Origin: Spirochaetales bacterium
GTDB lineage: Bacteria; Spirochaetota; Spirochaetia; SZUA-6; JAFGRV01
Direction: 5' to 3'
Assembly (NCBI GenBank): GCA_016930085.1
Contig: JAFGHO010000083.1
Location: forward strand, 1-64,000
DNA: 64,000 bases
Below, one piece after another: positions 9,186 to 40,360 of this stretch; the stretch's first letter is position 1; every line of letters begins with the position of its first letter. Made by a program: the position numbers and the translations under genes. The notes under the pieces were generated by a model. It had not been told where the DNA came from, made no database searches, and saw nothing but the letters and a program-made list of their open reading frames with translations.

Positions 9186-9240
9186 TTGATGACCGAATAG
9201 TCATAAAATTGATGACCGAATAGTCATAAAATTGATGACT
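9185..9240 (+). repeat. 23-bp tandem repeat, 2.4 copies
   Basis: ATTGATGACCGAATAGTCAT plus AAA occurs at 9185-9207 and 9208-9230, with a third copy broken after ATTGATGAC. Each unit contains the short inverted pair ATGAC/GTCAT around a six-base loop. It begins at the stop codon of the bS22-like gene. Confidence 0.85.
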
Positions 9241-16416: not shown

Positions 16417-17340
16417 TCAGAGCCCGAATCTGCCTGTTTCGATCCATTCGTTTTTTATGAGCGACCACCAGTCGACCGCGAGTCCCCGGAGGACATATTC
16501 ATAAGGAAGCCACCCGTAGCCCACGTCGCCCCATCCCGTTCCCCACGAGTTTCGTATCAAAAGCGCGCCGGTCGTTTTGTTCGCCCCGCCGCCGGCTGTG
16601 GTATTGACGATCTCCATCTTATCGTCGTAACCCGCGGCAATGACGGCGTGGCCGCCGAGGATGCTTTCCCCCGAGGACGGGAAGGGAATTTTCCCCGAGG
16701 ATGAGGCCTGATCGATGGAATCATAGACCGTGAACCCGAACATCGACGGAAGGCCGCTGGAAATATTTGTCTTGATAAGGGAAAGCAGTTCGTTTTTTTC
16801 CGTTCCCGGGGGATCGAGGCGGTAATAGCTGATCGCCTGGTAGTTCAGGCCGAACGAATAACAGAACGCCGTCGGTTCCTCATCGAATGTGCTTTCCGAA
16901 TACGGCCAGTAAGCCTCCGGCGGAACCCCGAAGAGGACCATGGCGCCCATGGTCGTCCGGATGAACGCGCCCGTATCGCCATTTGTCCGCATGAGGTTCC
17001 GAGTCGCCTTGTAGAGGAAGAGACGAGAGGCGTCGATGTGCCTGTCGAACGACCTCCGTTCGAAATACTCCAAAAGTCCCACGCCCGCATGCGAGGTACA
17101 CGAACCGAGGGACAGCTGGTTTTCGACCGGGGAAAACCATTCCCGGAGAGACACAGCAGCCGGGACTCCGGTTTTACTTTTTTTCCCCGCTTTTACCGCA
17201 CCCAGCATGTCACTGATGGATCTTTTCAGTCCCAGTTCCCGCTGCTTTTGCGAGAGTGACGTGCGGTCGACCGTATAGTCCCTGAAATCGGGATAATCCG
17301 GTATCCATCCCATGCCGTAACCTCTATTACCTTCTCCCAT
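16417..17340 (-). CDS. papain-like cysteine peptidase (C1A family)
   Basis: The 307-aa protein has a complete papain catalytic set: oxyanion Gln75 and nucleophile Cys81 in ENQLSLGSC, His231 in LGGHAVIAAGYDD, and Asn264 in RNSWGTGWGDVGYGW. The N-terminal GWIPDYPDFRDY is typical of bacterial members. No signal peptide or membrane segment is seen, so it may be cytoplasmic or exported by another route; the absence of a long propeptide is notable. ATG start with a strong AAGGAGG site. It is 128 bp downstream of the A2M operon's last gene and may be transcribed separately. Confidence 0.9.
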   Translation of the reverse strand: MGEGNRGYGMGWIPDYPDFRDYTVDRTSLSQKQRELGLKRSISDMLGAVKAGKKSKTGVPAAVSLREWFSPVENQLSLGSCTSHAGVGLLEYFERRSFDRHIDASRLFLYKATRNLMRTNGDTGAFIRTTMGAMVLFGVPPEAYWPYSESTFDEEPTAFCYSFGLNYQAISYYRLDPPGTEKNELLSLIKTNISSGLPSMFGFTVYDSIDQASSSGKIPFPSSGESILGGHAVIAAGYDDKMEIVNTTAGGGANKTTGALLIRNSWGTGWGDVGYGWLPYEYVLRGLAVDWWSLIKNEWIETGRFGL

Positions 17341-17468
17341 ATGAACGTTCCTCCTTATGTATGAAAAATTATTGTATAACCGAATCGTTGTCGTGTTTGG
17401 ATATATAGTCTATCACATTTCGTATTTTTAACAGGAGTTCATACGTCGTTTTTAAAAAAATATTTCTC

Positions 17469-18167
17469 TCATTCAATAGCTCTCACGATTACCTCGTCGA
17501 TCCCGATCGAAAGACTGTTCGTTCTGAAGGAGATATACATCCCCGGCTGTATGACCGTGTCCAGGTCAAAGGGGTAATAATATTCAGGTTTACGGGGATG
17601 ATAAAACCTGCCTTTTCCGTTAGTGCAATCGATGCGTATTCTGAACCGGAGATGATCATTGTCCCGTCCCGTCGCCGTAAAATCCTCAGGAGAAAGAATA
17701 TCGGGATCGAGGGGGTATTCGTCGCCCTTTTTATTGTGAAGGAAATCCATATGTACCGGAGACGTACTCCGGTAGACCTGGAGGAAAAAGCAGTCGTCCC
17801 GGCCGTAGGCTTTGGGATCGAAGGTCATCCAGAGGAGGAAAGAGCGTCCCATCCCCCAGCTTCTTCCGGATGTCGGGGAATCGATGCAGATATGGATGCC
17901 GAACCCCCCGTAACGATCGGAAAGTCCGCCTCTATAGAAGCAATCAAACTCGTATTCCATGATTCCTTCCTGTTTGACCATTCTTGCCGAATGGGTCATC
18001 GTATCGGCGGTATCTTCCTGGACGAGGACCCCGTTTTTTATCGTCCATGATCCATTGATACGCTTCCATTCGCCCATGATGGCAAAGCCGTCCCGGATGA
18101 GATAATCTTCAGCGAGGCAGGGAAACGTCGCTGCGAATATCAGGATGAGGAAATGGAAAAGTTTCAT
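17469..18167 (-). CDS. exported protein with LamG/DUF1080-like beta-sandwich
   Basis: A 232-aa protein with a signal peptide (MKLFHFLILIFAATFPCLA). The mature part has the pattern of a concanavalin-like sandwich: GEWKRINGSWTIKNGVLVQE, IMEYEFDCFYRGG, GGFGIHICID and LRFRIRIDCTNGKGRFY. Such folds often bind carbohydrate, but no catalytic motif is visible. A Cys in the signal region (TFPCLAE) could be a loose lipobox. It starts 15 bp after pbpC, so it belongs to the A2M-PbpC operon. Confidence 0.65.
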   Translation of the reverse strand: MKLFHFLILIFAATFPCLAEDYLIRDGFAIMGEWKRINGSWTIKNGVLVQEDTADTMTHSARMVKQEGIMEYEFDCFYRGGLSDRYGGFGIHICIDSPTSGRSWGMGRSFLLWMTFDPKAYGRDDCFFLQVYRSTSPVHMDFLHNKKGDEYPLDPDILSPEDFTATGRDNDHLRFRIRIDCTNGKGRFYHPRKPEYYYPFDLDTVIQPGMYISFRTNSLSIGIDEVIVRAIE

Positions 18168-18182
18168 TGTATACTCCTTGTC

Positions 18183-20567
18183 TCAGTAGTCATCGACGTC
18201 GATCACGACTTTTTTGCTGTAGATATGGGCGCGGGCGAATTTCGCCTGTATCGTATGTGTTCCCTGTTCGAGGTTCCACCGGATACTGTAGGGGAATCCG
18301 GTTACCTGATACGCTTCCCCGTCGACGAGCCAGACGATTTCCTTAACAAGGGGCTCAACGTGCGCCCTGAGGGGGATCGATTGGCAGGCGCGGGGTGTTT
18401 CCGGATCGATAAGAAGACTTGAGCCGTTTTGGGGATCGAGAATGGTGATCGATGCATCATCGAGGGTTTCATAGGCGACTTCGGGTGTTTTATAGCCGTG
18501 TTTGACGGCCCACGCGCCGTATTCGGGGGGAAGAACGGCATATGACTGTGTGACGACCCTGTTAACGGGGGTTGTTTTTCCCGCGGGTTTGCCCGTCGCG
18601 CCGTCGATGGCAAACTCCCTGTGGAAACCGCAATATTCGAGGGGCTCTTCACCAGGACGGAAATATTCGATCGAAATATCGGTACAAAAAGAACCGGCAC
18701 ATTTTCCCGAGAGCTTGCATATCTTCCGCGGAATGGTATCCGGTGGCTTTTTGAACGGTTCTTCCCGTATTCCCTGCTTTTTTTCCGGGTCCAGGAAGGT
18801 GAAGACGGAATATACCGCAAGGGCCGCCTCACCGCCCGTGAGGTGATTCATACGGTGGTTTTTCGGATGCCCCATCCATATCCCGACGATGTAATCGGCG
18901 TTATAGCCGACCGCCCATGCGTCGCGGTAACCCTGGGAGGTTCCCGTTTTTATGGCGATGGGATAGGAAAAGCCGATTCTGCTCAATTGTTTGAAAGAAG
19001 GCGAGCGGGCAAGCGGATCGGAGAGAAACAGCGAGATCTGCCTTGCGGCATTGACGGACATGAGCCGCCTTCCTTTCTCCTCCCGGCTTTTATACTCGAA
19101 ACAAAGCCGGAATGTCTCCCCGTCTCGGGCGAGCATTCCGTAGGCGGAAACCAGTTGTTCGAGGGTGACATACAGCCCGCCGACGGCAAGCCCGTAGCCG
19201 TAATAATCAGACGGGTGTTCAGCGCCGCTTCCGAGACCGAGTTCGCTGAAATATCCGAGTGTCCTGTCGATGCCGATTGCATCGAGCACCCGAATGGCGG
19301 GAATATTCCTGCTGTTGGCAAGGGCGTGGCGGTACAGCAGCGGGCCGAGGTAATCGTCGTCAAAATTACCCGGCCTGTATTCACCTTTAATACTCAGGAT
19401 GGAAAGGGGAAGATCGGGAATGATACTGGCCGGCGTAAAGGTCCCGGTATCGAGCCCCAATCCGTAAAGAAACGGTTTCAGGGTACTCCCGGAAGAGCGG
19501 GGGGTGTCGGCGTAATTGATCGCCCCGGCGTTTTCTTTGTCATCGTAGCGCTCGCTCCCGATATATCCCAAAATATTTCCTGTTTTCGTTTCAGCGACGA
19601 TCACGGCGATATTGCCCGCGCCGCACGGCCTGTATTGCGCCATACACTGCGCCGCCGTCCGGTCGAGAAATTGCTGGATTTCCCGATCGAGACTCGTTCG
19701 TACCGGGCGGGAATAATTTTGGGTTCCGTTTTCCCCCGTTTTTTTTCCGTACGTTTCGAGCAGCCTGAAAAGATAGTGATAGGCGTATTCGGGACGGCAC
19801 TCTTTTATCTGATAGCTTTTATCATACAGCACACCAAGCGCGGTCCGGTATTCTTCTCCGGACATATGTCCTTCCGAATACAGTATTTCCAGAATAATAC
19901 GAGCCCGTTTCGCCGCCTTGAGCGAACCGTCGAACGTATAGAGGTTCATTTCTCCCGGCGCCTTGATCACCGCAGTGAGAAGCGCTGCTTCGGCCCAGCT
20001 GATGTCGGAGAGGGGTTTCCGGAAATACCGCCGCGCCGCGTACGCGACGCCGTGCATCTGGTTTCCCTGCGGGACGATCCTCAAATAGTGGCGGAGTATT
20101 TCCTCCCGCGGATACTTCAGCACGAGCAGCATCGCCGTGTAGATTTCACTCAGTTTGTTGAGGAGTTCTCTTTTTTTGGGATTCTGCATGCGCGCGACCT
20201 GCATCGGAATGGTTGACCCACCCTGTACGGGTTTTCCGCTTATGTTATTGAGTAAGGCCCGGAGAAGTGATCTGAAATCACAGCCGATATGGGAATAAAA
20301 ACGTTTGTCTTCGATCGCGATAAACGCCGCTTTTATCCTTTCGGGAACCGGTCCCTCGATCTTCCAGAATCCGTATTTACCGTCTCCGTTCTGGAAATCG
20401 GTCAAATATTCGTTGTCTCTGTCCTCGAAAAGGGGTGTCGCGGGAGGGCCCGCCAATCGTGCGGTGAGGAACGCATGAACGAACAACATAAAATGGGCAA
20501 GGAAAAGAATAATGAATGACAAGGCAACAAGGGGTTTGATTGTCTCTCTTATCGGCGTTCGTCTCAT
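18183..20567 (-). CDS. pbpC: penicillin-binding protein 1C (PbpC)
   Basis: Bifunctional peptidoglycan synthase anchored in the inner membrane. The 794-aa product has one N-terminal helix (LVALSFIILFLAHFMLFVHA), a GT51 glycosyltransferase domain with EDKRFYSH (Glu near residue 86) and QGGSTIPMQVAR, and a transpeptidase domain with STLK (near residue 360), SRN and KTGTS (near residue 540). The C-terminal BiPBP_C domain begins ITILDPQNGS and ends FPYSIRWNLEQGTHTIQAKF, diagnostic for PbpC. ATG 20567 is chosen, 11 bp after the A2M stop with GGACGGAAAG upstream; a longer form would overlap A2M. Confidence 0.94.
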   Translation of the reverse strand: MRRTPIRETIKPLVALSFIILFLAHFMLFVHAFLTARLAGPPATPLFEDRDNEYLTDFQNGDGKYGFWKIEGPVPERIKAAFIAIEDKRFYSHIGCDFRSLLRALLNNISGKPVQGGSTIPMQVARMQNPKKRELLNKLSEIYTAMLLVLKYPREEILRHYLRIVPQGNQMHGVAYAARRYFRKPLSDISWAEAALLTAVIKAPGEMNLYTFDGSLKAAKRARIILEILYSEGHMSGEEYRTALGVLYDKSYQIKECRPEYAYHYLFRLLETYGKKTGENGTQNYSRPVRTSLDREIQQFLDRTAAQCMAQYRPCGAGNIAVIVAETKTGNILGYIGSERYDDKENAGAINYADTPRSSGSTLKPFLYGLGLDTGTFTPASIIPDLPLSILSIKGEYRPGNFDDDYLGPLLYRHALANSRNIPAIRVLDAIGIDRTLGYFSELGLGSGAEHPSDYYGYGLAVGGLYVTLEQLVSAYGMLARDGETFRLCFEYKSREEKGRRLMSVNAARQISLFLSDPLARSPSFKQLSRIGFSYPIAIKTGTSQGYRDAWAVGYNADYIVGIWMGHPKNHRMNHLTGGEAALAVYSVFTFLDPEKKQGIREEPFKKPPDTIPRKICKLSGKCAGSFCTDISIEYFRPGEEPLEYCGFHREFAIDGATGKPAGKTTPVNRVVTQSYAVLPPEYGAWAVKHGYKTPEVAYETLDDASITILDPQNGSSLLIDPETPRACQSIPLRAHVEPLVKEIVWLVDGEAYQVTGFPYSIRWNLEQGTHTIQAKFARAHIYSKKVVIDVDDY

Positions 20568-20578
20568 TGACCGGTCCG

Positions 20579-23500
20579 CTACTTTCCGTCCTTTTTGGTA
20601 TCGATCTTTATTCTCGTTCCGTCGCTTCTCCCGTATTTCGACAGGTCGTACATGAGGCCGCATGTCGCGGGGGGCTGGATGCACTGACCTTCGAAGCCGG
20701 CACGGACGCGAAAATAAAAATCGTAGGTGCCGCGGGGAAGGTAGTCGTAATAAAAGGTGACATGATCGTCTGCGTACACGCTGTATGAGGGCTGCCGCGT
20801 GAAACTTCCGGCCGGTTTTGCCTCTTTGGGGGCCGTTTTCAGTTCCGGATTCAGCGGTTCGAATCCCGATGCGAGGGGAACGCGGATCGCCACATAGTAC
20901 TCGTCAGAGGCACTGACAAGCCGGATGTGTTCTTCGACAATGTCTTCCGTTTCATACCGGATCGTGCCGCCAGCCTGTACCGCGTTTTTTGCCGCAAGCC
21001 GGTTGTCGCTGTGGTAGCGGAGATGTTCCCTGCTCAAGACAAATCCCTTTGATACGGCGGTTACCGTGTCCCCCGGTCCGGCGGGGACGTATTCGATGGA
21101 ATAAAAGCAGGCGGGATCTGTCTTCGCGTTCGAGGAAGAGAGGGTGAGGGAACATTCGTCCGCCTGCGTGTCTTCGTGAATGAGAAGGGGCGAGTCTTTC
21201 AGCACGAGGTCGCTTTTTCTCCCCCCTGATTCGAGGGTGAACACGACGTTGTCCCGGCGCTTTGCCTCGATCGAGAGGATATCGCCGAGTGCAAGAAGCA
21301 CCGCGACATTCGTGGCCGTGTTCCCCCAGCCGTCTTCGTCGGAACGTGAAACCAGGTAATCGAGCATCAGCCGGACGTCTTTCGATGACGGATCGGCATG
21401 GTAAAGAGCGCGCAGCACGGAAGCAAAACTCTGCATTTCGTAAGAAAGAACGGGACCACCCCACCTGGTGTTCGTATATTGAAGCCCCTCGAACACCCTT
21501 TTCCTTTTCTCATCGAGGGAAAACACGGTACGTTCCCGCAGCAGCGCGAGGAGTTTTTTCGCCTGCTCGTTCGATTTTTTACCGTTTTTGATAAAGTAAT
21601 ACAGGATTCGACCCTGTTCATAGAGATCCGAATGATAGGCGGCAACGAGGAGGTCCTGCGCGTATTCCTCTTCATAGATGCCGATCTCACCCAACGCGAG
21701 CAGGGCCTCGATCCGTTCGCGCAGGGCGTATCCCGATGTGAGGAAAGCGTAGTCGCTTCTCAGGGCGCGTTTCAGGGCGGCAACCGGTCTGTCGAGGAGA
21801 TCCCCGGGGAAATCGAATCCGGCGGTTCTTGCCAGAGAGAGAAACTCGACCACATAGGCGGTCAGAAAGACATACCCCGCAGAGCCGGGCCAGAACGAGT
21901 AGAGGCCGTCATCCGTCAGACACGAACCGAGGTAGGCGACCAGTTCGCTCATCTGATGGGTATCCGGATAATAGGCGTCTTTTAATCCGAGTGTGTTGAA
22001 GAGATTGAAGAGTGCGAGGCCTGGATAGAGTTTGCTGATACGCTGTTCGGTGCAGAGGTGGGCGTAATTCGAAAGATAGGTCATCCCGTTCAGGATGGAA
22101 AGAAGGACCGGTTCGGTGGTGATGATGAAACGTCGGCGGACGCTGTTTTTTCTGTACGCCTCCCCGATTCCCGGAAACTGAAGCGGCTTTTTACCGGTCA
22201 GCAGTCCGAAGCGGTCGATCCTGTTTTTCGCGATATCATATTGCCACGGAAGCCGCAGGCTGAATCCGTCGGACGCGTTGTCCGCGTCGCGCTTGACGGC
22301 AAGGGTGATTCTGACCTCCTTCATGTACGGTTCCGATGTTTCTTCAGGAACATGAAAGGGGAAATAGAGACGGTGCGGCCTTCCCGTTTCCCACACAAGG
22401 TGTCCCGATTGTTCGATAAAAAGCCCGCCGTCGCGTCTGATATACATTCCGTCCGTTTTAATCTGATACGAACCCGGACCCCCTTCGCCTTCGACGACCC
22501 GACCGATGCCGCCGGCGACGAAATCGTCGAACGGCCGGACAAAGCGGGGAAGCGATGACTGGACGATGAGTGGAAGGCGGACCGAGATTCTGGATGATGC
22601 GGTTCCGAACTTATCCGGGCCGGAGATACCGATCGCCCTGACGGCAAAATCGGTGAGGTTGTCGGGGAGGGTTATGCGGACCGAAGCTTTCCCGTTTCGT
22701 ACGACAATTGTATCGTTGAAATACGGCACGGTCTGGAATACACGGCGTATCGATGTTCGTTCGATGAGACCGATCTCCTTTTCGAATTCGCCGCCGCCGC
22801 CGGGATTTTCCTCGACGGCGAGATTGCCCACCACATCGTTTCTCGTTTCGCGAATTCTGATGTGGGAACGGACGTCCCCGATAAACGAATACAGCGGGTT
22901 TTTGAATTGTTCCGTTCCCAGCGCCAGGACCGCCCTGTCGACGAGCCAGAGGGAGACAGCCCCGTCAAGGGGGACACCCCGGGCATCGGTCATGGTAACG
23001 GTGAGGGTTATCTCCTCACCCGGTTCCGTTTTATTAGGATGATCCAATGTGATGAGCGCCTTGTTTTCATCGGGTTCCACGTATATCCAGGTGGTATTTG
23101 CCATCGCCTGGGGCTTTCGCCTGTCGTCTTTGAAACGGACCTGTTCCGTTCCGCCGCCCGGAAGCCTTCCTCGTATAAGGAGGGTATGAACGGGAAGCCT
23201 GGGGATCATGTTTTTGGTCACGGGAATGGAAAAAAGCCCCGTGCCGTTTTTGATATCGATCCAGTGATATTCATTTGCGTCCGGCTTTTCCACCGCGATC
23301 AAAGCGCGCGCGGACTGAAAGGGGCTTTTCAAAAGAAGGGTGGCGAGGTCTCCTGGTGAATATGATGATTTGTCGAGGGTGGTCTCGAATATATTGGCCT
23401 CCGTTTTTTTCCATGTGACGGGGGTGTCCCCGGTCACGAAACAATCGGTATATACCTTCTGCATCCGGCCCAGGTTGTCCCAGCCGAGGACTTCCGCCAC

Positions 23501-26377
23501 ATAGATGCCGGATTCCGTCACCGGGACGGACAGACGGATCGGTTTTTCACCGGAAACATATTCCTTTTCGAAAATAAGTTTGTCGACGATATCGGAATTG
23601 TAAGCGGCCTCCCCGGTGGTAATATCGGTTTCGGTCAGGTAGGAGTGCCACTCGCGGTGATAGAGGCGCACTTTTATTTCCTTTCCCGCAAGGGGCGCCT
23701 CGTTATGGCCGATCACGAGTATTTCCGGTGTGACGGCGAGTCCCTCCCGTATCAGCTTTTCGAGTTTCAGTCCGATAACGAACGGCGGGAGGGCGAGTAC
23801 GCTCGTCGAAGCGGTAACCGTCTGAATATCGGCCCCGCGGACTGTCGCGTGGATGACATACCGCTGCGGGATCGAGGTGTTTTCCGTCGAGGGATCGATA
23901 GTGAGGGTCGCCGATCCGTTAGCGTCGGTCAGGTCCTCGAGTGAGTAGCTTCCCAGAAATCCCCCGGCTCGGACTGCGGTAAACCGCTCGTCGGATGAAA
24001 AAAGATAACCCGGAAAATCATGGGAAGTGATCTGGTAGCCATAGCGGTTGACTTCCCAGGTTATCTGCTGGTCGACCACCCGGCCGCCTGAGTAGTAGTC
24101 GGCGGTCATGGTCACGGTAAACACTTCATCCAGGGGAGTCTTCTCCGGGGCGGAAAGATTAATTTCAAAACGGGGAATTCGGTAGGCTTCCTTTTTAAAG
24201 GAAGTTGAAGCAAGCTGCGACCCGGAATCAGTATCCATCAAATATACCGTGTACGTACCGGTGGGTATATTCTGTTTGTCGAAGAGAAGGGAAAAATAAC
24301 CGTATTCGTTCAAGGTTACCTTGTAATCCCATGATTTCCCGCCGGGACCGCTAACGATCACCTGCGCTCCCGTCTCGCGATCGATTCGTATAATACCCTG
24401 CTTCCAGACACGTTTGTAGCCGAGGACATGAACCGACTCTTCCGGGCGGTAAATGGGGCGTTCTGTGAGAATAAAGCCTTTTTTAGCCGCTTCCTCTTTT
24501 ATGGTGACGGGTTTACTGTTCAGCCAGGAAAGCCAGTTGCCCGAAGACCCGAACCAGTGATTGTTCATGAACTCGGGCGGCGGATTTTGCGGGTCTAAAA
24601 CCAGATAATCCCCGTCGAGGGATACAACGATTCGCTTTATACGTTCCGGTATTTCGACCATATGGGAATAGTAAAACCGGCCTTCCCGGTCTGTCGATCC
24701 GCGGATGATCGTTTTCCATTGTTTGTCTTCGTAAGACTGTATCGATATATCGGCCCCGGAAAGCGGCTGTCCGGTTTTCAGGGATGTGACGATAAAATTG
24801 ATACCCTGTTCTTCTTCGATCGTACTCAGACTCAGGTCCGTGACGGTCATTTTAACGTAATACCGCCGCGAGGAACCCTCGAGTTCGCGGTAACCGAGGA
24901 GATAGGTTCCCGGCGCGCCGGGACCCGAAATTTCTGCGAGCATGGAGGCGACATCGATACCGAAATCGGCGTTCGAGGTGCTTTTATCGATGGGAAGGGA
25001 TATCACCCGGGAGATGAGGGGGGTGCCGAGAAGCCTGATCTGCTCCGCGATCTGTGTCCCGTATTCCGGTTCCTCGCCGGGCATCCTGGGCGGGGTCGAT
25101 TCATCGATGATCACGGGATTCGTGGGAAACGGCCAGAAATTGAGATCGAGGGGACTGACTTTATGGATTCTCAGATCTATTTTTTCCATGGCCCGGCCGG
25201 TCATCGGGTGGTACTGGGGCCCGTACCGTTCGACGATCGCGCTTGCCTGCAGCCACCGTATGGAGGGACTCAACGAGGTGTAATAGAAATACATCGACGA
25301 TTGTCCGAAAGAGGAAAGCCGCCGTCCCGATCTGCTTTCAAGGGGGATATGGGAGAGGGCCATCTGATAAGGTGTTTCGCGTTCAGCGTCAAAGTAGAGG
25401 ATGATTCTTTTCCCGTAGGCGTTATAGGTGAGGTTGCGGACGGCGGGCGTGATTTTGACGAGCTTTTTCACCTCCTCGACCGAAGGCGATGCTAAGTCTT
25501 CAGAGAATTCGATGAAGAGAGGATTTTTTCTTGTTCCGCAATTAATCGCCTGTTCCAGTGAATAAACGCTGCCGTTTCGCGCGATCGGATATTTGACAGA
25601 GCCGCTTCCCATACCGGCGATCGTAAACTCCCGTTTTGTCTCGAAGGTGTAGGTGGCAACCGAGCCCGGGATCGCGGGGTTCAGTGAAAGATCGAGCGAG
25701 AGGACCGCGCGTTTGCCGTATTCGACAGGGGAGGAAAGTGTGACAATATATATCGAATCGGAAGAACGTTTTTCCCGGTCGAATTCCTTGATCCGTATAT
25801 CCTCTCCCGTGATCCAGCGTGTTTCCTGTTCATCGAGGCCGGGCAGCTGCTGTATTGTGATGGTGATCATTTCCGCAAGGTCGCGGGGTTCGATTCGTTC
25901 GCCGAAGGTAAGGGTGATTTCCGAAAAAGGCTCCAGATCCGTTCTTCGGGACGGAGACACGTGCTTGGGCGGGATCATGAGGGTGGCAATGCGGTGCGTA
26001 CAGGTGCCGGTCGAAACTTCGAACTCCGCAAGCGGGGGCCAGGGGATCGCGGGTAAAAACTGGAGTATATGGTCGTCGAGCCATTTGTATTCACCCGGAT
26101 GATCCGGGGTTATTGAAATGATTCCTTCCGGATTATCGAGAGGTCCACCGGAAGCGGGGCCCCGTGATTCGGAGTAAAATACCGTGACCGGATCATAGCT
26201 GCGTAAAAAGGATTCGGGAAGGACGAGACAGTCTTGGTTTGCCGTGAGGCCGGCGGTGTCATCCGGAAGATGTTTCCCATACCGGATATCCGCCGTTTCA
26301 CCTTCCCCCAGCGAATATAATATGGGGTTGCAGATGAAGATGAGTACGATAATAATAGGTATATGCCTGGTATTCAT
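20579..26377 (-). CDS. bacterial alpha-2-macroglobulin (large, thioester-containing)
   Basis: Large periplasmic protease trap, thought to protect the cell when the outer membrane is breached. The 1932-aa product has a signal peptide (residues 1-25), many macroglobulin beta-sandwich domains, a bait/thioester half with YAHLCTEQ (Cys near residue 1441, which forms the internal thioester with Gln), an alpha/alpha-toroid complement-like domain around it, and a C-terminal receptor-like domain rich in PRGTYDFYFRVRAG. It matches the YfhM type that is co-encoded with pbpC in many Gram-negatives, as here. A Cys in the signal segment (IFIC) is a poor lipobox. Confidence 0.93.
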   Translation of the reverse strand: MNTRHIPIIIVLIFICNPILYSLGEGETADIRYGKHLPDDTAGLTANQDCLVLPESFLRSYDPVTVFYSESRGPASGGPLDNPEGIISITPDHPGEYKWLDDHILQFLPAIPWPPLAEFEVSTGTCTHRIATLMIPPKHVSPSRRTDLEPFSEITLTFGERIEPRDLAEMITITIQQLPGLDEQETRWITGEDIRIKEFDREKRSSDSIYIVTLSSPVEYGKRAVLSLDLSLNPAIPGSVATYTFETKREFTIAGMGSGSVKYPIARNGSVYSLEQAINCGTRKNPLFIEFSEDLASPSVEEVKKLVKITPAVRNLTYNAYGKRIILYFDAERETPYQMALSHIPLESRSGRRLSSFGQSSMYFYYTSLSPSIRWLQASAIVERYGPQYHPMTGRAMEKIDLRIHKVSPLDLNFWPFPTNPVIIDESTPPRMPGEEPEYGTQIAEQIRLLGTPLISRVISLPIDKSTSNADFGIDVASMLAEISGPGAPGTYLLGYRELEGSSRRYYVKMTVTDLSLSTIEEEQGINFIVTSLKTGQPLSGADISIQSYEDKQWKTIIRGSTDREGRFYYSHMVEIPERIKRIVVSLDGDYLVLDPQNPPPEFMNNHWFGSSGNWLSWLNSKPVTIKEEAAKKGFILTERPIYRPEESVHVLGYKRVWKQGIIRIDRETGAQVIVSGPGGKSWDYKVTLNEYGYFSLLFDKQNIPTGTYTVYLMDTDSGSQLASTSFKKEAYRIPRFEINLSAPEKTPLDEVFTVTMTADYYSGGRVVDQQITWEVNRYGYQITSHDFPGYLFSSDERFTAVRAGGFLGSYSLEDLTDANGSATLTIDPSTENTSIPQRYVIHATVRGADIQTVTASTSVLALPPFVIGLKLEKLIREGLAVTPEILVIGHNEAPLAGKEIKVRLYHREWHSYLTETDITTGEAAYNSDIVDKLIFEKEYVSGEKPIRLSVPVTESGIYVAEVLGWDNLGRMQKVYTDCFVTGDTPVTWKKTEANIFETTLDKSSYSPGDLATLLLKSPFQSARALIAVEKPDANEYHWIDIKNGTGLFSIPVTKNMIPRLPVHTLLIRGRLPGGGTEQVRFKDDRRKPQAMANTTWIYVEPDENKALITLDHPNKTEPGEEITLTVTMTDARGVPLDGAVSLWLVDRAVLALGTEQFKNPLYSFIGDVRSHIRIRETRNDVVGNLAVEENPGGGGEFEKEIGLIERTSIRRVFQTVPYFNDTIVVRNGKASVRITLPDNLTDFAVRAIGISGPDKFGTASSRISVRLPLIVQSSLPRFVRPFDDFVAGGIGRVVEGEGGPGSYQIKTDGMYIRRDGGLFIEQSGHLVWETGRPHRLYFPFHVPEETSEPYMKEVRITLAVKRDADNASDGFSLRLPWQYDIAKNRIDRFGLLTGKKPLQFPGIGEAYRKNSVRRRFIITTEPVLLSILNGMTYLSNYAHLCTEQRISKLYPGLALFNLFNTLGLKDAYYPDTHQMSELVAYLGSCLTDDGLYSFWPGSAGYVFLTAYVVEFLSLARTAGFDFPGDLLDRPVAALKRALRSDYAFLTSGYALRERIEALLALGEIGIYEEEYAQDLLVAAYHSDLYEQGRILYYFIKNGKKSNEQAKKLLALLRERTVFSLDEKRKRVFEGLQYTNTRWGGPVLSYEMQSFASVLRALYHADPSSKDVRLMLDYLVSRSDEDGWGNTATNVAVLLALGDILSIEAKRRDNVVFTLESGGRKSDLVLKDSPLLIHEDTQADECSLTLSSSNAKTDPACFYSIEYVPAGPGDTVTAVSKGFVLSREHLRYHSDNRLAAKNAVQAGGTIRYETEDIVEEHIRLVSASDEYYVAIRVPLASGFEPLNPELKTAPKEAKPAGSFTRQPSYSVYADDHVTFYYDYLPRGTYDFYFRVRAGFEGQCIQPPATCGLMYDLSKYGRSDGTRIKIDTKKDGK

Positions 26378-26388
26378 TGTTTCCTTCC

Positions 26389-29300
26389 TTATCTCGCACC
26401 GTAATTTTTCAAAACATCGTGGGGAATATCCTGTCTTGAGCCCCTTGTTCCGAGAAGCCTTGGCGTGTATTGAATCGCTTTATCCCCGGAGAAGACAAGG
26501 TAGTAATAATCGCCGGGGAAAAGGGTATGAAAGATAAGGGGCCCCTCTTCAATAATCCCGAATTGCCGGTCATAGAGAATCCCGGAGAGCCCGTCGGCCT
26601 CCCCCCTTATCCCGATCCCGATGAGTCCTTCCTTTTCGACAGAAAAGACAAAAGCCTGATATTCACCCGCCCCGATAAAATAGCCTTTCTCGTCCCCGTT
26701 TTCGGTAATCCGATGCGGGACGAGAAAAGAATACCAGAGCATTCCCGCTTCCTTCCCGTCTCCGGCGGATTCGAGATACACGCCGTAGGTGCCGGGTTCG
26801 ACATTGCGGAAGAGGGTATTACCGGTTGCCGTTCGGGAAAGGTTGATCGAAAGCAGTTTTTTGCGGTCGAACAAAGCGAGAGTACCGGGCAGTTCGCTCC
26901 GGATATGAAGAAATCCCGGTGTTTTCACATTGACGGTAAAAAGTCCGGGGCCATCGCCGGTTATCATCCCGTTTTTCAGTGGTTCAGGCACGCGGTTCAA
27001 CGCGTTTTTTACCATGGGGGCGTATACTTCGGATGAGTCGGCCTGCCAGACAAAGACACAGCCCGGTTTGTGGTATATTTCACAGATACCATTGTAAAGC
27101 GGAAGTGTGATTAGCCCGCGCGCGTCCGAGAACATCTCTCCCTGATAGATGATACCGTTTTCCGCTTTCAGTACGGCCGATGCGATATTACCTGATACAC
27201 AAAGAAGCCCCTCCCGTTTTTTCGAAGTAACGGTCAGCCTGAGTGTTCCGTGATCCAAAAACAATTCCCTGAAGCGTGTCTTCTCATCGACGCACGTTAT
27301 GATGTCACGGCCGCCTTCGGCACGGCCGCCTTCGGCACGGCCGCCTTCGGCACGGCCGCCTTCGGCACGGCCGCCTTCGGCACGCGATGCTTCAATCCTG
27401 AAAAGCAGCGGTTTTCCCGTCGTATTGACGATTGAAAAGCTTCCGCCGTTCGCCGGAACGATGTGGCTTTGATTCGCCGATGTCGCGGCATAAAGCTGCC
27501 GCGGCCCGCCGTTTTCCCAGTGAAAGGCGATGAGCCCTTTTGATAAAAGAAGCCGGATGAGCTGCGGTTCTGCGGTCAGCGTGAACGTGTATCCGTTTCC
27601 GGGTCCCAGAGTAACCGTTTTTTCGCTGTAAAAAGGAAGTGTTTCCTTGTTTTGAAGCGCAAAGGATGTGGCGGAAATAGTGCAGGGGGGGAGGTCTTCT
27701 CTTGCAGGGCTGTCTTCCGCTATCCATAATCGACCGCGGAACTCTCCTTTGATTGGCAGCCCGAACATTGTTTTTTCATTGTCCATCCCCATTCCTTCCC
27801 ACCGGTAGGAAGCGGCCGCCCGTTCTCCTTCCCCGGCCACCGAAAGACCGATTTTTTTCCCAGGCAGCCATGCCTCGAGAAGAAGAATATCGTTTGCGTA
27901 GTAGGAGAGTGAAAAGGAGTGTTCCGTTCTGTTTAACGGAAATGAGACGGTCGAGGGCTTATTGATTATTACAGGCTCGATACCGATGGTACCGTGTTCG
28001 TCATTCGTATTGAAAATCCAGCCGGTATCTTCGATCATGTTATATGGGACCGGGGTCACCGGTTCTGCGGGGACCTCGTATCCGGGGGAAAAAAGGAGTC
28101 CTTTACGGACACCTGAAATCGTAAAACTCGTGTTCATGGTATTGACGAGTCGTAATGCCCTGTCGATGTCCGCCTCCTTCTTCCCGTCGAGCGTCAGGTG
28201 TTTGGTTTCGACCTGCTCAATGGCGATTGTCGCCTCGATATCTTTCTGCAGACGGTGGGAGAGGATGAGGTCGTAGCGACGGTCCGGTTTTAAGGGGATT
28301 GTCAACTCGTTCTGAAACGATGCACAGCGTCTGTCACCCTGATAAAGCGTTCCGGTAACGGTGAGTTCCGCGGTACAGAGGATGCGTGCGAGTCCCCCGC
28401 GAGCGCCGGAAAAAAACGGTATCCTCGTTATCGTGTTTTCACCCAGAACGAGATTTTCCGTTAATGGAAAATTTTTCCGTGATTGAAGCGGTGTTCGTTC
28501 CCGTATTCTGTCAAGAAAGACCGTGCTTGTATTGTCATAACCCTTGTCCTGTTTTTCAATATATAGCAGATAACTGCCCGCATCGTATTGTGAGAGCATC
28601 TCGAAATTCCAGTCATGTTCCATATCGTCGTTTCGATCGAGGAGAAGAGATCTGTCGCTGTTGTAGAGGGAGGCTTTCAGATCCGGCTTTCCGTAACTCC
28701 ACATGCGAAGGATTCCCTTTTCATCGTTCCTCACCTCGATTGTTGCAGGATATCGGGTGATCTGTTTGCTGAGTCCCGGAGCAAGCTGGTCCGTCCTGAC
28801 GGTAATGGTATACGGGTATGCGTTGTTTTCTTCATTACTCGAAAGTTCGATCCGGTACTCACCCCCGTCACATTCGAATGTATTTCGTTCGGCGCCGGGA
28901 AAAGCGATTTGTGTTTCGGTTTTCAGATGGATCATGCTTCCCTTCATCCCGGCCGAAAGATCGATCGTGATCGTCATTGCGGCGGGAAGCGAAAGGGAAT
29001 AGACATCGGGCGGTCTGCCCGGCCTTTCGTTCCATATCCCTTTTTTCACGCCGTTCAGTACGATTTCCCGTTCGTTTTCTCCAACCGGATCCGTTTTCCT
29101 CATTGAGGTAATCCTTCGGGTACGGTAATCAAGCGGGAGGGAATAATAGGTATACTCACCGGGTGTGCAATACCCCCTGTATGCTCCGTTTCCGTCAAGA
29201 ACCAGGGGCCATCCCCCTTCCTCCTCGAAGCGGTATGGAAAATCGGACTGGAATCCGATCGTTTCGATAAGGTAATTTCCCGCTTCTCCCACCGAAACCC

Positions 29301-31566
29301 CGAACCGTATCGCCCGGTCTCCCTCCAGGGTATACCTGCAGATTGATTCGTCACGGATCGTAGCGCCTTCCGTTATGCCGGTCTTATTGCAGTGAATGCC
29401 GCATCTGCCCGCCGATTGTCCGAGGGTTTCGACCTGCACGAGATACGTGCCTTGTTTCAGGTATGTTTGAAAGAGCGCGTTTCTTCCCACGCCGTTTTGT
29501 GAAACACTGAAGACATCGGTTTTGACCGGTGTTCGCATCGTTATTTTGGTCGCGAGTCTGCCCGAGGTTTCGATACGGTAGAGGGCGGGCTGCGAAACGA
29601 GCAGAAGGTACGGCTTAAGCTCACGGCGCGAAAAATCGGTATAGACCGGTTGTTCTGTGGTGAGTACCTGATAGACCGTTTCGGGGTCTTTGACGGAAAG
29701 GGGCCGTTTCGGGGCTTTTAATGGAATAGGCCGGGTGTTGAGTGAAAAATAATCCCCGTAATCAAGAGTGTTCGTGAGCGTCAGACTATGCAGGCCTCCT
29801 TCGAGTCTGAAAGCGTTTCCCGCCTTTCTGTTATCGATCGACAGCGTAAAGGAGATTCCTTCCACTTCGAGCAGGGATTCGGCATCGACTGAGATAGAAA
29901 GGGTAACGGATTCGCCGCGATTCAGGTAAAGGGGCAGGGGATCGTCGAGCGAGAGGGGAAGTTCTCGCTTTATCAGTGCCGTGCTTACCCCCGGTATCTC
30001 ATTACATTGAATCGTGTGGTTTCTTTCGTTTCCGCTTACCGAAAGGCGCGGCCAGATGAATTGGTTGGCGGGTTCCTGTGGAATAGTCCCGCCGATCGCC
30101 TTTACCTTCCCCTCATCGTCACGGTGATAAACGGCAAAGTGAAGGATTCCCGCTTCGACAGGCCTGATTTCGAATACATAGTACCCGTTCGTCAATTCGA
30201 CCTGATTGCCTGCTTTCGTGAATGGCGCGTGGTATCGTGATTCCGAATCATTGCTGAGATAAAAACGATATTCCGCCTTCGCCCCCGTACCGAACTCCTT
30301 TATCCGGTAGGTGCCTTTTGTTTGGACCGCGAGAAAAGCGTATGCATGTTCTAAAAGATTGATCTGTCTGTATAACTGTCTGCCTTTCGCGATCCGGATT
30401 ACCTCATCATGAACGATGTTGATTTCATTCAGATCCCCGTATTCGGAATAAAAAGCGGTTAGATCGAGGCGTTGTTTTCCTTCGATCGATCGCATACCGG
30501 AAATAAACCAGCTTTTTCCCGCTTCTTCCCGTGAAAATGACACCGAGTTTTTATTGTTGAAAAAAAGCAGCCTGACGCGATGCCCGGGCTTTGCGGTGAT
30601 TGAAACGATGTGGTCGTCTCGCTGGGAATACCGCGACAGGGAACACCATGGATGCTTCGATTCTTTATGGATGGAACCGGTGCTCGAATCGACACGTAAT
30701 GTAAGCGGCTCCCGATCTTCCTGTATCGCCTGGAAAAATGAGGCACTTCCTGAGGCGAGATAGTGATCCGTCCCAAAGGGGGATACCTCCAGTTCCAAGA
30801 AGTTTTCACCGCCCAGATGGCGGAGACCGCGCCTGAGATAAAAAGGAGACGTTTTCTCATCATCCGGCCATTCTGCTTTTACTCCGCCCACACACAGGAG
30901 AAGGTATGTCCCGGCCGGAAGCCGTGCCGTGATATTGTAATGGTGTAACGGTTTCCCGGATCGCGGATCGATACGGTGTTCCGATATATGCAATGATTCT
31001 TTCCAGTAGCCGTCACGCCAAAGGGAAACGGATGAAAGCGAGCGGCCGGCTGCATCGATCACGAGCTGTTCATCCTCAACGGTTTCCACCCAGAAGGAAT
31101 AGATTTCCAGATCGTCGAGTTCACCCTCGAAAGAATCGAGATCCTCGATGCGGGGAAAAGACCGGTTTGCGGGTATGATGTTTTTTTCCGTATATTCGAT
31201 GACGTCGACGGAAAGGTCCCCTGTTGTTTCCGGTTGTTTTTTCATCCTGATTTTATATTCACCCTTATCGAGGAGGATATCGAGTCTTCCTTCTTTCCCT
31301 TCCTGCTTTGTTTGTGATTGAAGGGTACCGGACATCCTGTCACAGACGGCGAATGACGCCGGGGGGATACCGTTCACCCTGATGCTGTACCACCCGCGTT
31401 TACCGACGGACAGTATCGTCTCTGTTTTCTCACCGGATGTGAAAGCGGTTTTTGAAAGATGAACATCATTCCCGCATAAAAGCGGCGGGCTGATACAGAT
31501 AAACAATGCAAATAAAAGCGTTTTAAGCGAATAACGAATCACGTTTCGATGAGCGTGGGAGGGCAT
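26389..31566 (-). CDS. giant exported multi-beta-sandwich protein (PPC-like repeats)
   Basis: Function unknown. The 1725-aa protein has a signal peptide (SLKTLLFALFICISPPLLC, possibly a relaxed lipobox). The rest is many repeats of the pattern 'sensor strand, G-Y-x-I/V, then L-x-x-G-x-Y-x-L-x-V', for example ARLPAGTYLLLCVGG, TYLKQGTYLVQVETLG, RNVEPGTYGVYLESAG and LFPGDYYYLVFSG. These resemble prepeptidase-C-terminal jelly-roll domains. A five-copy RAEGG repeat lies near residue 1395. ATG 31566 has GAGGTG upstream; longer frames start before the promoter. It is 11 bp ahead of the A2M gene, so the two are co-transcribed and probably act together in the periplasm or on the outer membrane. Confidence 0.75.
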   Translation of the reverse strand: MPSHAHRNVIRYSLKTLLFALFICISPPLLCGNDVHLSKTAFTSGEKTETILSVGKRGWYSIRVNGIPPASFAVCDRMSGTLQSQTKQEGKEGRLDILLDKGEYKIRMKKQPETTGDLSVDVIEYTEKNIIPANRSFPRIEDLDSFEGELDDLEIYSFWVETVEDEQLVIDAAGRSLSSVSLWRDGYWKESLHISEHRIDPRSGKPLHHYNITARLPAGTYLLLCVGGVKAEWPDDEKTSPFYLRRGLRHLGGENFLELEVSPFGTDHYLASGSASFFQAIQEDREPLTLRVDSSTGSIHKESKHPWCSLSRYSQRDDHIVSITAKPGHRVRLLFFNNKNSVSFSREEAGKSWFISGMRSIEGKQRLDLTAFYSEYGDLNEINIVHDEVIRIAKGRQLYRQINLLEHAYAFLAVQTKGTYRIKEFGTGAKAEYRFYLSNDSESRYHAPFTKAGNQVELTNGYYVFEIRPVEAGILHFAVYHRDDEGKVKAIGGTIPQEPANQFIWPRLSVSGNERNHTIQCNEIPGVSTALIKRELPLSLDDPLPLYLNRGESVTLSISVDAESLLEVEGISFTLSIDNRKAGNAFRLEGGLHSLTLTNTLDYGDYFSLNTRPIPLKAPKRPLSVKDPETVYQVLTTEQPVYTDFSRRELKPYLLLVSQPALYRIETSGRLATKITMRTPVKTDVFSVSQNGVGRNALFQTYLKQGTYLVQVETLGQSAGRCGIHCNKTGITEGATIRDESICRYTLEGDRAIRFGVSVGEAGNYLIETIGFQSDFPYRFEEEGGWPLVLDGNGAYRGYCTPGEYTYYSLPLDYRTRRITSMRKTDPVGENEREIVLNGVKKGIWNERPGRPPDVYSLSLPAAMTITIDLSAGMKGSMIHLKTETQIAFPGAERNTFECDGGEYRIELSSNEENNAYPYTITVRTDQLAPGLSKQITRYPATIEVRNDEKGILRMWSYGKPDLKASLYNSDRSLLLDRNDDMEHDWNFEMLSQYDAGSYLLYIEKQDKGYDNTSTVFLDRIRERTPLQSRKNFPLTENLVLGENTITRIPFFSGARGGLARILCTAELTVTGTLYQGDRRCASFQNELTIPLKPDRRYDLILSHRLQKDIEATIAIEQVETKHLTLDGKKEADIDRALRLVNTMNTSFTISGVRKGLLFSPGYEVPAEPVTPVPYNMIEDTGWIFNTNDEHGTIGIEPVIINKPSTVSFPLNRTEHSFSLSYYANDILLLEAWLPGKKIGLSVAGEGERAAASYRWEGMGMDNEKTMFGLPIKGEFRGRLWIAEDSPAREDLPPCTISATSFALQNKETLPFYSEKTVTLGPGNGYTFTLTAEPQLIRLLLSKGLIAFHWENGGPRQLYAATSANQSHIVPANGGSFSIVNTTGKPLLFRIEASRAEGGRAEGGRAEGGRAEGGRAEGGRDIITCVDEKTRFRELFLDHGTLRLTVTSKKREGLLCVSGNIASAVLKAENGIIYQGEMFSDARGLITLPLYNGICEIYHKPGCVFVWQADSSEVYAPMVKNALNRVPEPLKNGMITGDGPGLFTVNVKTPGFLHIRSELPGTLALFDRKKLLSINLSRTATGNTLFRNVEPGTYGVYLESAGDGKEAGMLWYSFLVPHRITENGDEKGYFIGAGEYQAFVFSVEKEGLIGIGIRGEADGLSGILYDRQFGIIEEGPLIFHTLFPGDYYYLVFSGDKAIQYTPRLLGTRGSRQDIPHDVLKNYGAR
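27309..27383 (-). repeat. 15-bp tandem repeat, five perfect copies, encoding RAEGG
   Basis: GGCCGCCTTCGGCAC occurs five times without a mismatch. On the coding strand it gives (RAEGG)5. The perfect identity suggests recent or ongoing copy-number change, always in frame. Confidence 0.96.
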
Positions 31567-31650
31567 CGTCACCTCATGTAATATTGAAGATACCGTTTTA
31601 ATGCCGATATGACGTTTTTCTGAACACTTTTTTTTATACAACATGGATAA

Positions 31651-31679
31651 AGCATATAGTGAACGGGGCGAAATGTCAA
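31651..31679 (-). promoter_or_regulatory. predicted promoter of the A2M-PbpC operon
   Basis: Read on the minus strand, TTGACA (31679-31674) and TATGCT (31656-31651) are 17 bp apart. Transcription would begin near 31644, leaving a leader of about 78 bases before the ATG at 31566. No competing strong promoter is seen inside the next three genes, whose gaps are only 11-15 bp. Confidence 0.55.
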
Positions 31680-32984: not shown

Positions 32985-33025
32985 GAATAATTCATGTGCT
33001 TGATTATTTTTGTGTAGAAACCGGT

Positions 33026-34321
33026 ATGGAAGAGGGTAATATAATCGATTTTCTGGTTTCTTTGATACTCCTCGTCCTTTTTATGATCCTTTCATCTTTT
33101 TTTTCCGGAACAGAGACGGCTTTTTTTTCATTGAACAGCCTGGAACGGGAAAAATTGAGGGGGATAAAAGGAAAATGGAATAAATCCGTCATCGAACTCT
33201 TTTTTTCTTCTCCCGACCGGATACTCGTCACCATTCTTACCGGAAACATGATCGTCAATATTTTCGCAACTGATATATTCGCGCTGTCCTTTTCGGAGAT
33301 GATTGTCGAACGTATCCCGTTTATGGATTCGGAGTTGTTTTCCGTTGTGGTGATGACACTCATTATTCTTCTTTTCGGGGAAATGACACCCAAAAACCTG
33401 GCGATCCGGCATCCACTCGCCTTTGCGCAATCTTCCCTTATTCCGTTGTCGTTTTTTACGAAACTTTTTTTACCACTCACCTGTATATTCAATTTCATGC
33501 GATCAAAGATCCTGATGAGTCTGCCGGCAAAAAACTCGCAAGACGATACAAAAAAAAAGGCCCTTATCGGATTTGCCATGAAAGTCGGATTTCAGGGCGG
33601 GCTTATCACAAAATACGAACTCGATATACTTGAATCGTATCTCGATTTTATCGATAAGACCGCGGCCGATGTCATGATTCCCAGGACGGAGATCCGGGGA
33701 ATCGATATCTCAACTGAGATCGGGCATATATTCTCACTTATTTCCGAGGGCAAGGCGAAACTGGATGGTTCGTTTTTATATGTTTATCAAAATGATTTCG
33801 ATCACCCTGTCGGATATATAGAAATAAAGGATTTGCTGCCGTTAAAATATAATGTCTATCCCGATGAAGGCGGCGCTGTCCTGAAATCGATTGTAAGGCC
33901 GTACTACTCGGTTCCGGGGTCGAAAAATCTCGGAGAATTGACCCGTGAACTGAGGCATTCGAACAGTGCAGTCGCCCTTGTGATCGATGAGTTCGGCGGT
34001 ACCTCGGGTATCGTCACATTCAAGACGATCGTCCAGGATCTGCTGGATTATTTCTATTCATCGGAAAAGGATTCGATTCTCCGTATCGGGGACGACCTGT
34101 TTTCCATACCCGGATCGATTGAAATAGAGACCCTCGAGAATTTTTTCGGGGTCTCTTTCCCTTCGGAAAGCAGAACGATATCGGGAATGATTATTGAAAA
34201 ACTGGGAGAAATTCCGGAACAGGGAGTTTCCCTCGATGTGTCGGGAATACGCTTTACCGTCAGAAAGGCGGGGAAGAACAGAATCGTCCGCCTCGAGGCC
34301 GGAAAAGGAAAGGAAGCATGA
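33026..34321 (+). CDS. CNNM/CorC (HlyC) family membrane protein
   Basis: A 431-aa protein with a CNNM (DUF21) membrane domain of about three to four helices (FLVSLILLVLFMILSSFFSG start, SGTETAFFSLN, LTGNMIVNIFATDIF, LFGEMTPKNLA), a CBS pair in the middle (MIPRTEIRGIDI ... VALVIDEFGGTSGIVT) and a C-terminal CorC/HlyC domain. Family members export Mg2+ or Co2+, or affect divalent-metal tolerance. ATG 33026 is chosen from the predicted transcription start. It overlaps the next CNNM gene by 4 bp. Confidence 0.88.
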   Translation: MEEGNIIDFLVSLILLVLFMILSSFFSGTETAFFSLNSLEREKLRGIKGKWNKSVIELFFSSPDRILVTILTGNMIVNIFATDIFALSFSEMIVERIPFMDSELFSVVVMTLIILLFGEMTPKNLAIRHPLAFAQSSLIPLSFFTKLFLPLTCIFNFMRSKILMSLPAKNSQDDTKKKALIGFAMKVGFQGGLITKYELDILESYLDFIDKTAADVMIPRTEIRGIDISTEIGHIFSLISEGKAKLDGSFLYVYQNDFDHPVGYIEIKDLLPLKYNVYPDEGGAVLKSIVRPYYSVPGSKNLGELTRELRHSNSAVALVIDEFGGTSGIVTFKTIVQDLLDYFYSSEKDSILRIGDDLFSIPGSIEIETLENFFGVSFPSESRTISGMIIEKLGEIPEQGVSLDVSGIRFTVRKAGKNRIVRLEAGKGKEA

Positions 34322-35550
34322 TAATCACCGGTATCGTCATTTGTATCGTGATGGCGGGATTTTTCGCGGGCCTTGAAACAGGCCTGCTCGCCGCGGATCA
34401 GCTTTCCCTGTTTATAAAAAAAGAGAAAAAGCTTCTCTACGCCCGGGCGGCCCATTATCTTCTCATAAAACCCGAACGGCTTCTTTCGACGACACTGATC
34501 GGGACGAATATCGCGGTGGTGAGTGCGACGGTTCTGTTGAAGAGTCTTTTTTTACGAATGGGTTATCCCCTCTGGTTATCCTGGCCGGGCAGCCTCCTTT
34601 TGAGTATCGTCCTGCTTGTCTTTTCCGAAATTATTCCCAAATCGTTTTTCAGGCAGCACGCAGACGGTCTGAGTGTTCGCATTGCACCGCTTCTCACTGT
34701 TTTCTATATCCTTTTCATTCCCCTTTCCTTTTTCCTTAACAGGATCGTCGCGTTCATGCTTTTTGTTTTCCGTCAACGATCCGTGAAGCGGTTGCCGCGT
34801 TCCCGGGAAGATCTTCGATTACTGATGAAACTCATTTGCAGGGAATCGGGTATGCAGATAACGGGTCAAAAAATAATAGATGATATTTTTGATTTCAAAG
34901 AAACAATGGCCCGTGAAGTAATGGTGCCTTTTCATGAAGTACCGGTATGCAGCAGGGGCTCGTCGATCAGGGAAATCATCATGTTTTATACTGAAAGAAA
35001 ATCCCGTTTTATCCCCGTGTTTCTCGAACGCGCCGATAATGTCGTCGGAATCATCGACATGGATACGGCATTGACCGTTCAGGCGACGTCGATCAATGAT
35101 ATAATGAAGAAGGCGATTTATTACCCGGAAACAAAAAAGATTCCGGATCTCCTTAAAGCCATGATCGAAAAGAATGAAGAAGTGGTTTTTCTCGTCGATG
35201 AATACGGCGGTATTTCCGGTATGATCTCAAAAAACGATATCGCTGCCGAGATCGTCGGTTATATACCGGAAGAACACAGAAGCCAGGCAATCGATATCTC
35301 CATTATTTCCAGGAATGTCGTTCATGTCTCCGGTACGACCGACCTCGAGGATCTTTTCAGGGAGACGGGAATACGCATCGAAAAAGGTAATTATGATACG
35401 GTCGGCGGATATATCTGTTTCAAAACCGGTGAAATACCCAGGGCCGGAACGGCCTTTACCGATAAAGGGCTGGGCTTTTCCATTCTGGAAAGCGATGAAC
35501 GGCGTATAAAGCGTATCGAGATCAGGAGGATTAAAAAAGAAGAACTCTGA
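34318..35550 (+). CDS. CNNM/CorC (HlyC) family membrane protein, second copy
   Basis: A 410-aa paralogue with the same order: CNNM helices (GIVICIVMAGFFAGLETGLL, STTLIGTNIAVVSATV, LVFSEIIPKSFF), a CBS pair (VMVPFHEVPV, FLVDEYGGISGMIS) and a CorC/HlyC tail (GNYDTVGGYICFKTGEIP). Translationally coupled to the first (ATGA overlap). The two are quite divergent and could form a heteromer or have different metals. Confidence 0.88.
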   Translation: MIITGIVICIVMAGFFAGLETGLLAADQLSLFIKKEKKLLYARAAHYLLIKPERLLSTTLIGTNIAVVSATVLLKSLFLRMGYPLWLSWPGSLLLSIVLLVFSEIIPKSFFRQHADGLSVRIAPLLTVFYILFIPLSFFLNRIVAFMLFVFRQRSVKRLPRSREDLRLLMKLICRESGMQITGQKIIDDIFDFKETMAREVMVPFHEVPVCSRGSSIREIIMFYTERKSRFIPVFLERADNVVGIIDMDTALTVQATSINDIMKKAIYYPETKKIPDLLKAMIEKNEEVVFLVDEYGGISGMISKNDIAAEIVGYIPEEHRSQAIDISIISRNVVHVSGTTDLEDLFRETGIRIEKGNYDTVGGYICFKTGEIPRAGTAFTDKGLGFSILESDERRIKRIEIRRIKKEEL

Positions 35551-40337: not shown

Positions 40338-40360
40338 GAAAAAGGATTTAAGGAGTTAAT

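Follow-up and report, generated by a model that had tools for sequence, protein, structure and literature searches.

The locus of interest lies in a 64,000 nt stretch of DNA (hereafter, the window; contig JAFGHO010000083.1, positions 1–64,000) from a Spirochaetales bacterium. All five genes that the original prediction claimed for it are present, and share the minus strand with two further features:

26389–31566, minus strand: giant (1725 aa), gene 1 of the cassette; signal peptide followed by predicted PPC/CUB-like beta-sandwiches of ~100 residues each
20579–26377, minus strand: A2M (alpha-2-macroglobulin, 1932 aa), gene 2; CTEQ thioester motif, signal peptide without a lipobox
18183–20567, minus strand: PbpC (bifunctional PBP 1C), gene 3; GT51 transglycosylase, transpeptidase motifs SxxK/SxN/KTG, BiPBP_C
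17469–18167, minus strand: small exported sandwich-like protein (232 aa), adjoining PbpC
16417–17340, minus strand: C1A papain-like peptidase (307 aa); PF00112, catalytic Cys/His/Asn context present, no signal peptide
31651–31679, minus strand: promoter-like sequence TTGACA-17-TATGCT, 85 nt upstream of the giant ATG
27306–27384, minus strand: 15 bp in-frame tandem repeat inside the giant gene (RAEGG, five copies); low model confidence

The longest open reading frame of the giant extends to 32289; its start was placed at 31566 because the signal peptide and the starts of relatives agree there, and this ATG gives exactly 1725 residues, signal peptide included. For PbpC, whose longest open reading frame starts at 20684, the ATG at 20567 is the more likely start. 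Intergenic gaps on the minus strand are short between giant and A2M (11 nt), A2M and PbpC (11 nt, with the PbpC ATG at 20567), and PbpC and the small protein (15 nt), with 128 nt between the small protein and the C1A gene. The window A2M matches MG2, A2M_BRD, A2M, and bMG10 in Pfam, and PbpC matches Transgly, Transpeptidase, and BiPBP_C (Pfam), together with PBP_1c; both of its catalytic domains are represented. On the opposite strand, beside the cassette, lie two adjoining CNNM/CorC-type genes (32996–35550) and a pair of envelope genes, TamB-like and then Omp85/POTRA (35826–42946). The RAEGG repeat of the giant is missing from aligned relatives; other tandem repeats in the window are found at 3881–3962 (18 bp × 4.6) and 9184–9239 (23 bp × 2.4).

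A single promoter was originally proposed to drive the first four genes (giant, A2M, PbpC, and the small protein). The promoter-like sequence does exist, and is well placed in the gap between the giant and a divergent GH88 gene, but the match at 31679–31651 is not significant, since the number of promoter-like sites in the scan (19) is no higher than that expected in shuffled sequence (15.5 ± 3.8). Judged by gene spacing, transcription of the four genes from one promoter is plausible, and the small protein is probably co-transcribed with the cassette in the window genome. The C1A gene is preceded by a separate AT-rich gap of 128 bp, and has a Shine-Dalgarno sequence of its own.

No family match was obtained for the window giant in Pfam or NCBIfam, nor any match to the sequences of solved structures in a PDB sequence search. 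Two overlapping AlphaFold models cover residues 30–1725 (pLDDT 88.1 and 83.6) and are all beta, and profile self-comparison detects internal repetition (99% probability, offset 360 residues) with repeat units of ~100 residues; models and repeat analysis confirm the earlier 'multi-sandwich' description. The best Foldseek matches are (i) CUB domains (neuropilin, PCPE-1), and (ii) the ColG collagen-binding PPC-like tandem. TM scores over the whole chain are low, which is to be expected of many flexibly joined domains, and the fold assignment is valid at the level of the domain only. PF04151 (PPC) weakly matches two of 18 giants (best E 1.4e-4, below the Pfam cut-off) and does not match that of the window. 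The giant is an exported, internally repeated array of PPC/CUB-like beta-sandwiches. A degenerate A2M paralogue was also considered for the giant, and ruled out (hhalign probability of 0.4% against the A2M profile).

Some giants carry an additional, N-terminal LprI domain (PF07007). It scores above cut-off in L127, L128, and L244 (Methylocystaceae/Hyphomicrobiales and Rhizobium), and is readable in frame upstream of the annotated giant starts in Rhizobium loci L243 and L245, where public annotation misses it; it is present neither in the window giant nor in the scanned giants of other phyla. Lysozyme inhibition has been reported for a mycobacterial LprI-domain protein, but was not found for Salmonella ScwA (PMC7933661), and the domain is therefore weak support for envelope protection by the giant.

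Among 118 relatives, 53 (the window genome counted in) carry an A2M of some kind. Only three others—G004, G007, and G012—encode an A2M that is 48–69% identical to the window A2M over its length, and all three, found with A2M as the query, contain the giant–A2M–PbpC trio. A fifth giant, in another class of Spirochaetota (G142), also precedes an A2M and a PbpC; a sixth (G026) is truncated where its contig ends, in an incomplete genome that yielded no A2M. The A2Ms of the other spirochaete A2M-PbpC pairs examined are 20–28% identical to that of the window, with no giant upstream. Conservation of the five-gene order across spirochaetes, the check proposed for the original prediction, thus fails for most spirochaete pairs. 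The window genome (G000) itself contains three more A2Ms, on contigs C32, C16, and C49 (L093, L094, and L095). The C49 copy belongs to an ordinary lipoprotein A2M-PbpC pair, which gives this genome two distinct A2M-PbpC systems. A congener of G004 contains a giant-type A2M fragment (L082:216-872, G002:C146; 66–77% identical, with two stops within the match) that is apparently the remnant of a lost cassette.

Beyond the spirochaetes, ~85,000 species genomes were scanned with giant peptide patterns; exact pattern matches were needed, making the resulting counts lower bounds. At least 21 loci were recovered, distributed among Spirochaetales, Aminicenantes, Poribacteria, Acidobacteria/Holophagaceae, Gammaproteobacteria, and Alphaproteobacteria. 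According to tblastn of 21 loci, an A2M follows the giant wherever there is room for one, Poribacteria excepted, and a PbpC follows the A2M in most. The order is rearranged in Holophagaceae, where PbpC comes first, and no PbpC adjoins the A2M in one Gammaproteobacterium (L119). Three Poribacteria genomes contain both the giant and a giant-type A2M (55–56% identical to the Aminicenantes A2M), unlinked and with no PbpC beside the A2M. The Poribacteria giant (L131:8030-18394 and L196) lies between LysM and DUF3108-like genes and LpxB/LpxK. Overall, both giant and giant-type A2M are present in 17 of the 18 giant-bearing genomes searched.

Further searches were begun from the A2M, in order to avoid picking loci via the giant. 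Across 297 genomes of the Methylosinus order, A2M scores fall into two groups (>3000 bits, or ≤133), with two high scorers: the seed, and a Rhizobiales genome (G719) in which giant, A2M, and PbpC were all present (one of one new genome). A giant profile run over the same 297 genomes matched only these two, with no giant in the other 295. In a set of 247 Acidobacteriota genomes, 11 encode a giant-type A2M (>1000 bits; the next score is 362), and the giant is directly upstream in all ten new cases, one of these across a contig break. In total, the giant was next door to 14 of 14 giant-type A2Ms found in this manner (three in Spirochaetota, one in Rhizobiales, and ten in Acidobacteriota).

The cassette is also carried on plasmids. 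Seven Rhizobium plasmids encode a giant (~44% identity). On the four inspected, the next gene, 5–10 bases further on, is that of an 'MG2 domain-containing protein' and the one after it that of a transglycosylase/PBP; the genes around the trio are largely different between plasmids. The giant is annotated in Rhizobium records as 'hypothetical protein' or 'lysozyme inhibitor LprI family protein'. On one plasmid, from Rhizobium sp. C104 (L246:12001-25424), giant, A2M, and PbpC are all annotated in pieces or shortened, reflecting either decay or sequencing frameshifts. Strains with the cassette include Methylosinus sporium DSM 17706, Rhizobium acidisoli FH23, and Rhizobium sp. CIAT894. The giant–A2M–PbpC trio is one conserved, horizontally mobile cassette in at least four phyla. 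The 14 of 14 A2M-first adjacencies and the recurrence of the trio across phyla and plasmids give strong support to a fixed partnership between the giant and A2M-PbpC; rather than rarely co-occurring with A2M in relatives, as the counter-case to the original prediction ran, the giant was found beside every giant-type A2M of the A2M-first searches.

Phylogenetic analysis places the giant-associated A2Ms in a clade of their own (SH-aLRT 100), apart from 38 others, among them E. coli YfhM and further A2Ms encoded in the same genomes. The giant-associated PbpCs likewise form their own clade (SH-aLRT 100; 21 versus 21). Both are quick trees in which no mixture model was used, and their deep branching order is not trustworthy. 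Giant and A2M distances are correlated (0.96), and in 19 of 22 cases giant and A2M have the same nearest neighbour, which shows co-inheritance rather than contact.

The A2Ms of the cassette have two properties of interest. Firstly, none of 29 giant-type A2Ms contains a lipobox, and all apparently have a signal peptide, as judged by sequence; the comparison set, consisting mostly of spirochaete A2M-PbpC pairs plus E. coli, has a lipobox in 25 of 32. The missing lipid anchor is suggestive but not exclusive to giant partners, because six Rhizobiales A2Ms without a giant, some of them truncated sequences, also have no lipobox (0/6). Secondly, CxEQ is kept in 25 of the 29 giant-type A2Ms, and lost in three from Rhizobium and one from Plastoroseomonas. 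In these four (L243:17139-23105, L244:17141-23068, L245:17135-23101, and L199) the thioester Cys is replaced (STEQ, PTEQ, GTEQ) and the cassette is kept. The published division of bacterial A2Ms assigns a thioester and pbpC to Type I, and the mag operon without a thioester to Type II (PMC5764988). This split is not clean within the cassette, since CxEQ is lost in some members, the lipid anchor is missing, and PbpC is kept.

How might the three proteins work together? An A2M traps proteases after cleavage of its bait region, and PBP1C is thought to repair peptidoglycan; the E. coli A2M has an inner-membrane anchor (PMC4498604). In P. aeruginosa, the operon partner MagB is needed both to hold the soluble MagD and to keep it intact (PMC5764988). 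By this precedent, we infer that the giant may be the holder of the unanchored A2M. The reading that we favour, at a little below even confidence, is a variant A2M-PbpC pair for envelope defence, whose soluble A2M is docked on, or scaffolded by, the giant. In the periplasm, the giant would act as a scaffold or capture platform, holding A2M, and perhaps PbpC, at the site of envelope attack, either standing in for the lipid anchor of Type I A2Ms or acting as MagB does for MagD. An intruding protease would cut the A2M bait region and become trapped—covalently, where CxEQ is present—as PbpC mends the wall. In Rhizobiales, the giant may also protect against wall-cutting enzymes through its LprI domain, a suggestion against which the ScwA result stands (PMC7933661).

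Several observations weigh against a scaffold. Similar domain arrays also occur in adhesins and binding proteins, making scaffolding one role among several. The Rhizobiales A2Ms without a giant manage equally without a lipobox (0/6), giant and A2M are apart in Poribacteria with no PbpC beside the A2M, and the L119 Gammaproteobacterium likewise has no PbpC adjoining its A2M. A bolder version of the scaffold reading is a three-protein envelope immune complex: the giant would capture or sense damage and carry the untethered A2M, whether covalent or not, to work with PbpC; the complex would be passed on as a cassette in four or more phyla and on plasmids, join both textbook A2M types in one lineage, and gain LprI in Rhizobiales. 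In this full form, the proposal is rather unlikely. As to the roles originally suggested, a putative envelope-defence function draws on the known A2M-PbpC hypothesis and, in Rhizobiales, on the fusion of LprI to the giant; a predation-related role found no evidence.

The main rival is that the giant binds or inhibits targets in its own right (ligand capture, decoy, or anti-lysozyme), acting in parallel to A2M and PbpC to counter one and the same attack, and forming no complex with A2M. The closest folds, CUB and PPC/collagen-binding, are domains that bind ligands, although they also make protein–protein contacts. LprI fused to Rhizobiales giants also fits a parallel inhibitor, as do the unlinked genes of Poribacteria, where the giant sits beside a LysM protein and LpxB/LpxK. 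The near-fixed adjacency of giant and A2M, the tight correlation of their distances, and the absence of a lipid anchor from the A2M suggest a closer tie, and we consider independent action of the giant unlikely.

A second alternative concerns the cassette as a whole, which could serve envelope maintenance—wall repair, quality control under stress, or control of the cell's own periplasmic proteases—rather than defence against other organisms. Hosts include free-living methanotrophs, rhizobia from soil, and MAGs of environmental origin, and no defence genes were noted adjoining the cassette; PbpC is a wall enzyme, and the Poribacteria giant lies among lipid A genes. Set against this, the sparse, patchy spread and plasmid carriage of the cassette look accessory rather than housekeeping, and an A2M with a bait region and thioester is built for protease trapping. 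A maintenance function is, on this evidence, improbable.

The C1A peptidase was originally proposed as a possible target or partner of the A2M in a five-gene unit. Support for this comes from its position, adjoining the operon on the same strand in the window, and from an orthologue in G012 (61% identity; L063:9330-10238, G012:C33:19329-20237) that lies 9.4 kb downstream of the cassette, again on the same strand, with no other conserved gene between the two. Orthologues of >55% identity occur in just two other relatives, G012 and G062, the latter with no A2M near. The peptidase is not beside the operon in any other phylum, or in G004 and G007; neither the window protein nor its G012 counterpart has a signal peptide; and the gene is set apart by its 128-bp gap. 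The G012 placement reflects coincidence or weak linkage, and cannot carry a claim of partnership. Membership of the module was rejected on distribution and the missing signal peptide, and a functional unit of five genes is very improbable. The small exported protein, for which no Pfam or NCBIfam family was found, recurs only in G004; present in two genomes only, it was ruled out as a core member, and is a local addition to the cassette. The weakest reading, that the giant is merely inherited beside A2M through chance or hitch-hiking, draws on the synteny that close relatives share by descent, and has a negligible probability given linkage kept among giants only 20–30% identical, in at least four phyla and with different flanks, a trio kept despite the rearranged Holophagaceae order, and co-presence even where the genes are unlinked.

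The discussion of A2M and PbpC as a two-protein pair for defence and repair goes back to 2004. The mechanism family is thus known; a cassette with a giant third gene was not found described, and our literature search returned no account of a giant A2M partner, with coverage that was incomplete and an earlier mention possible. The closest known system is the Type I A2M-PBP1C pair (E. coli YfhM/ECAM-PbpC), in which an A2M with MG, bait, and A2M domains and CxEQ is encoded directly upstream of a bifunctional PBP1C. The window locus has the corresponding MG2/bait-region/A2M/MG10 architecture, CxEQ, and pbpC beside A2M (among relatives, L119 and Poribacteria are exceptions to the last). It differs in the extra giant gene at the head of the operon, and in an A2M that has no predicted lipid anchor and shares only ~20–28% identity with A2Ms from typical pairs; within the giant-type clade, some members have, in addition, lost the thioester.

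The Type II mag/yfa operon (P. aeruginosa MagA-F) shares with the cassette a soluble A2M encoded with partner proteins (PMC5764988). Here, the A2M usually has a thioester (CTEQ in the window), PbpC is in the operon, and the partner is one 1700-residue sandwich array, with no mag-type accessory family detected in the giant by Pfam/NCBIfam search. The giant itself resembles PPC/collagen-binding and CUB proteins (ColG s3as3b, neuropilin, PCPE-1) in its repeated-domain fold (Foldseek) and in the weak PPC matches of some giants, but that of the window reaches no Pfam cut-off, and no solved structure matches it from end to end. LprI proteins (PF07007), whose inhibitor function is not generally established, share the N-terminal domain of the Methylocystaceae/Hyphomicrobiales and Rhizobium giants. 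With its fixed third partner, this separate A2M lineage offers a way into the question of how the envelope retains soluble A2Ms, and is testable through its occurrence in named strains; those of Rhizobium have the giant annotated as hypothetical or LprI family. A cassette with unanchored and thioester-less members also bears on whether PbpC works with soluble A2Ms.
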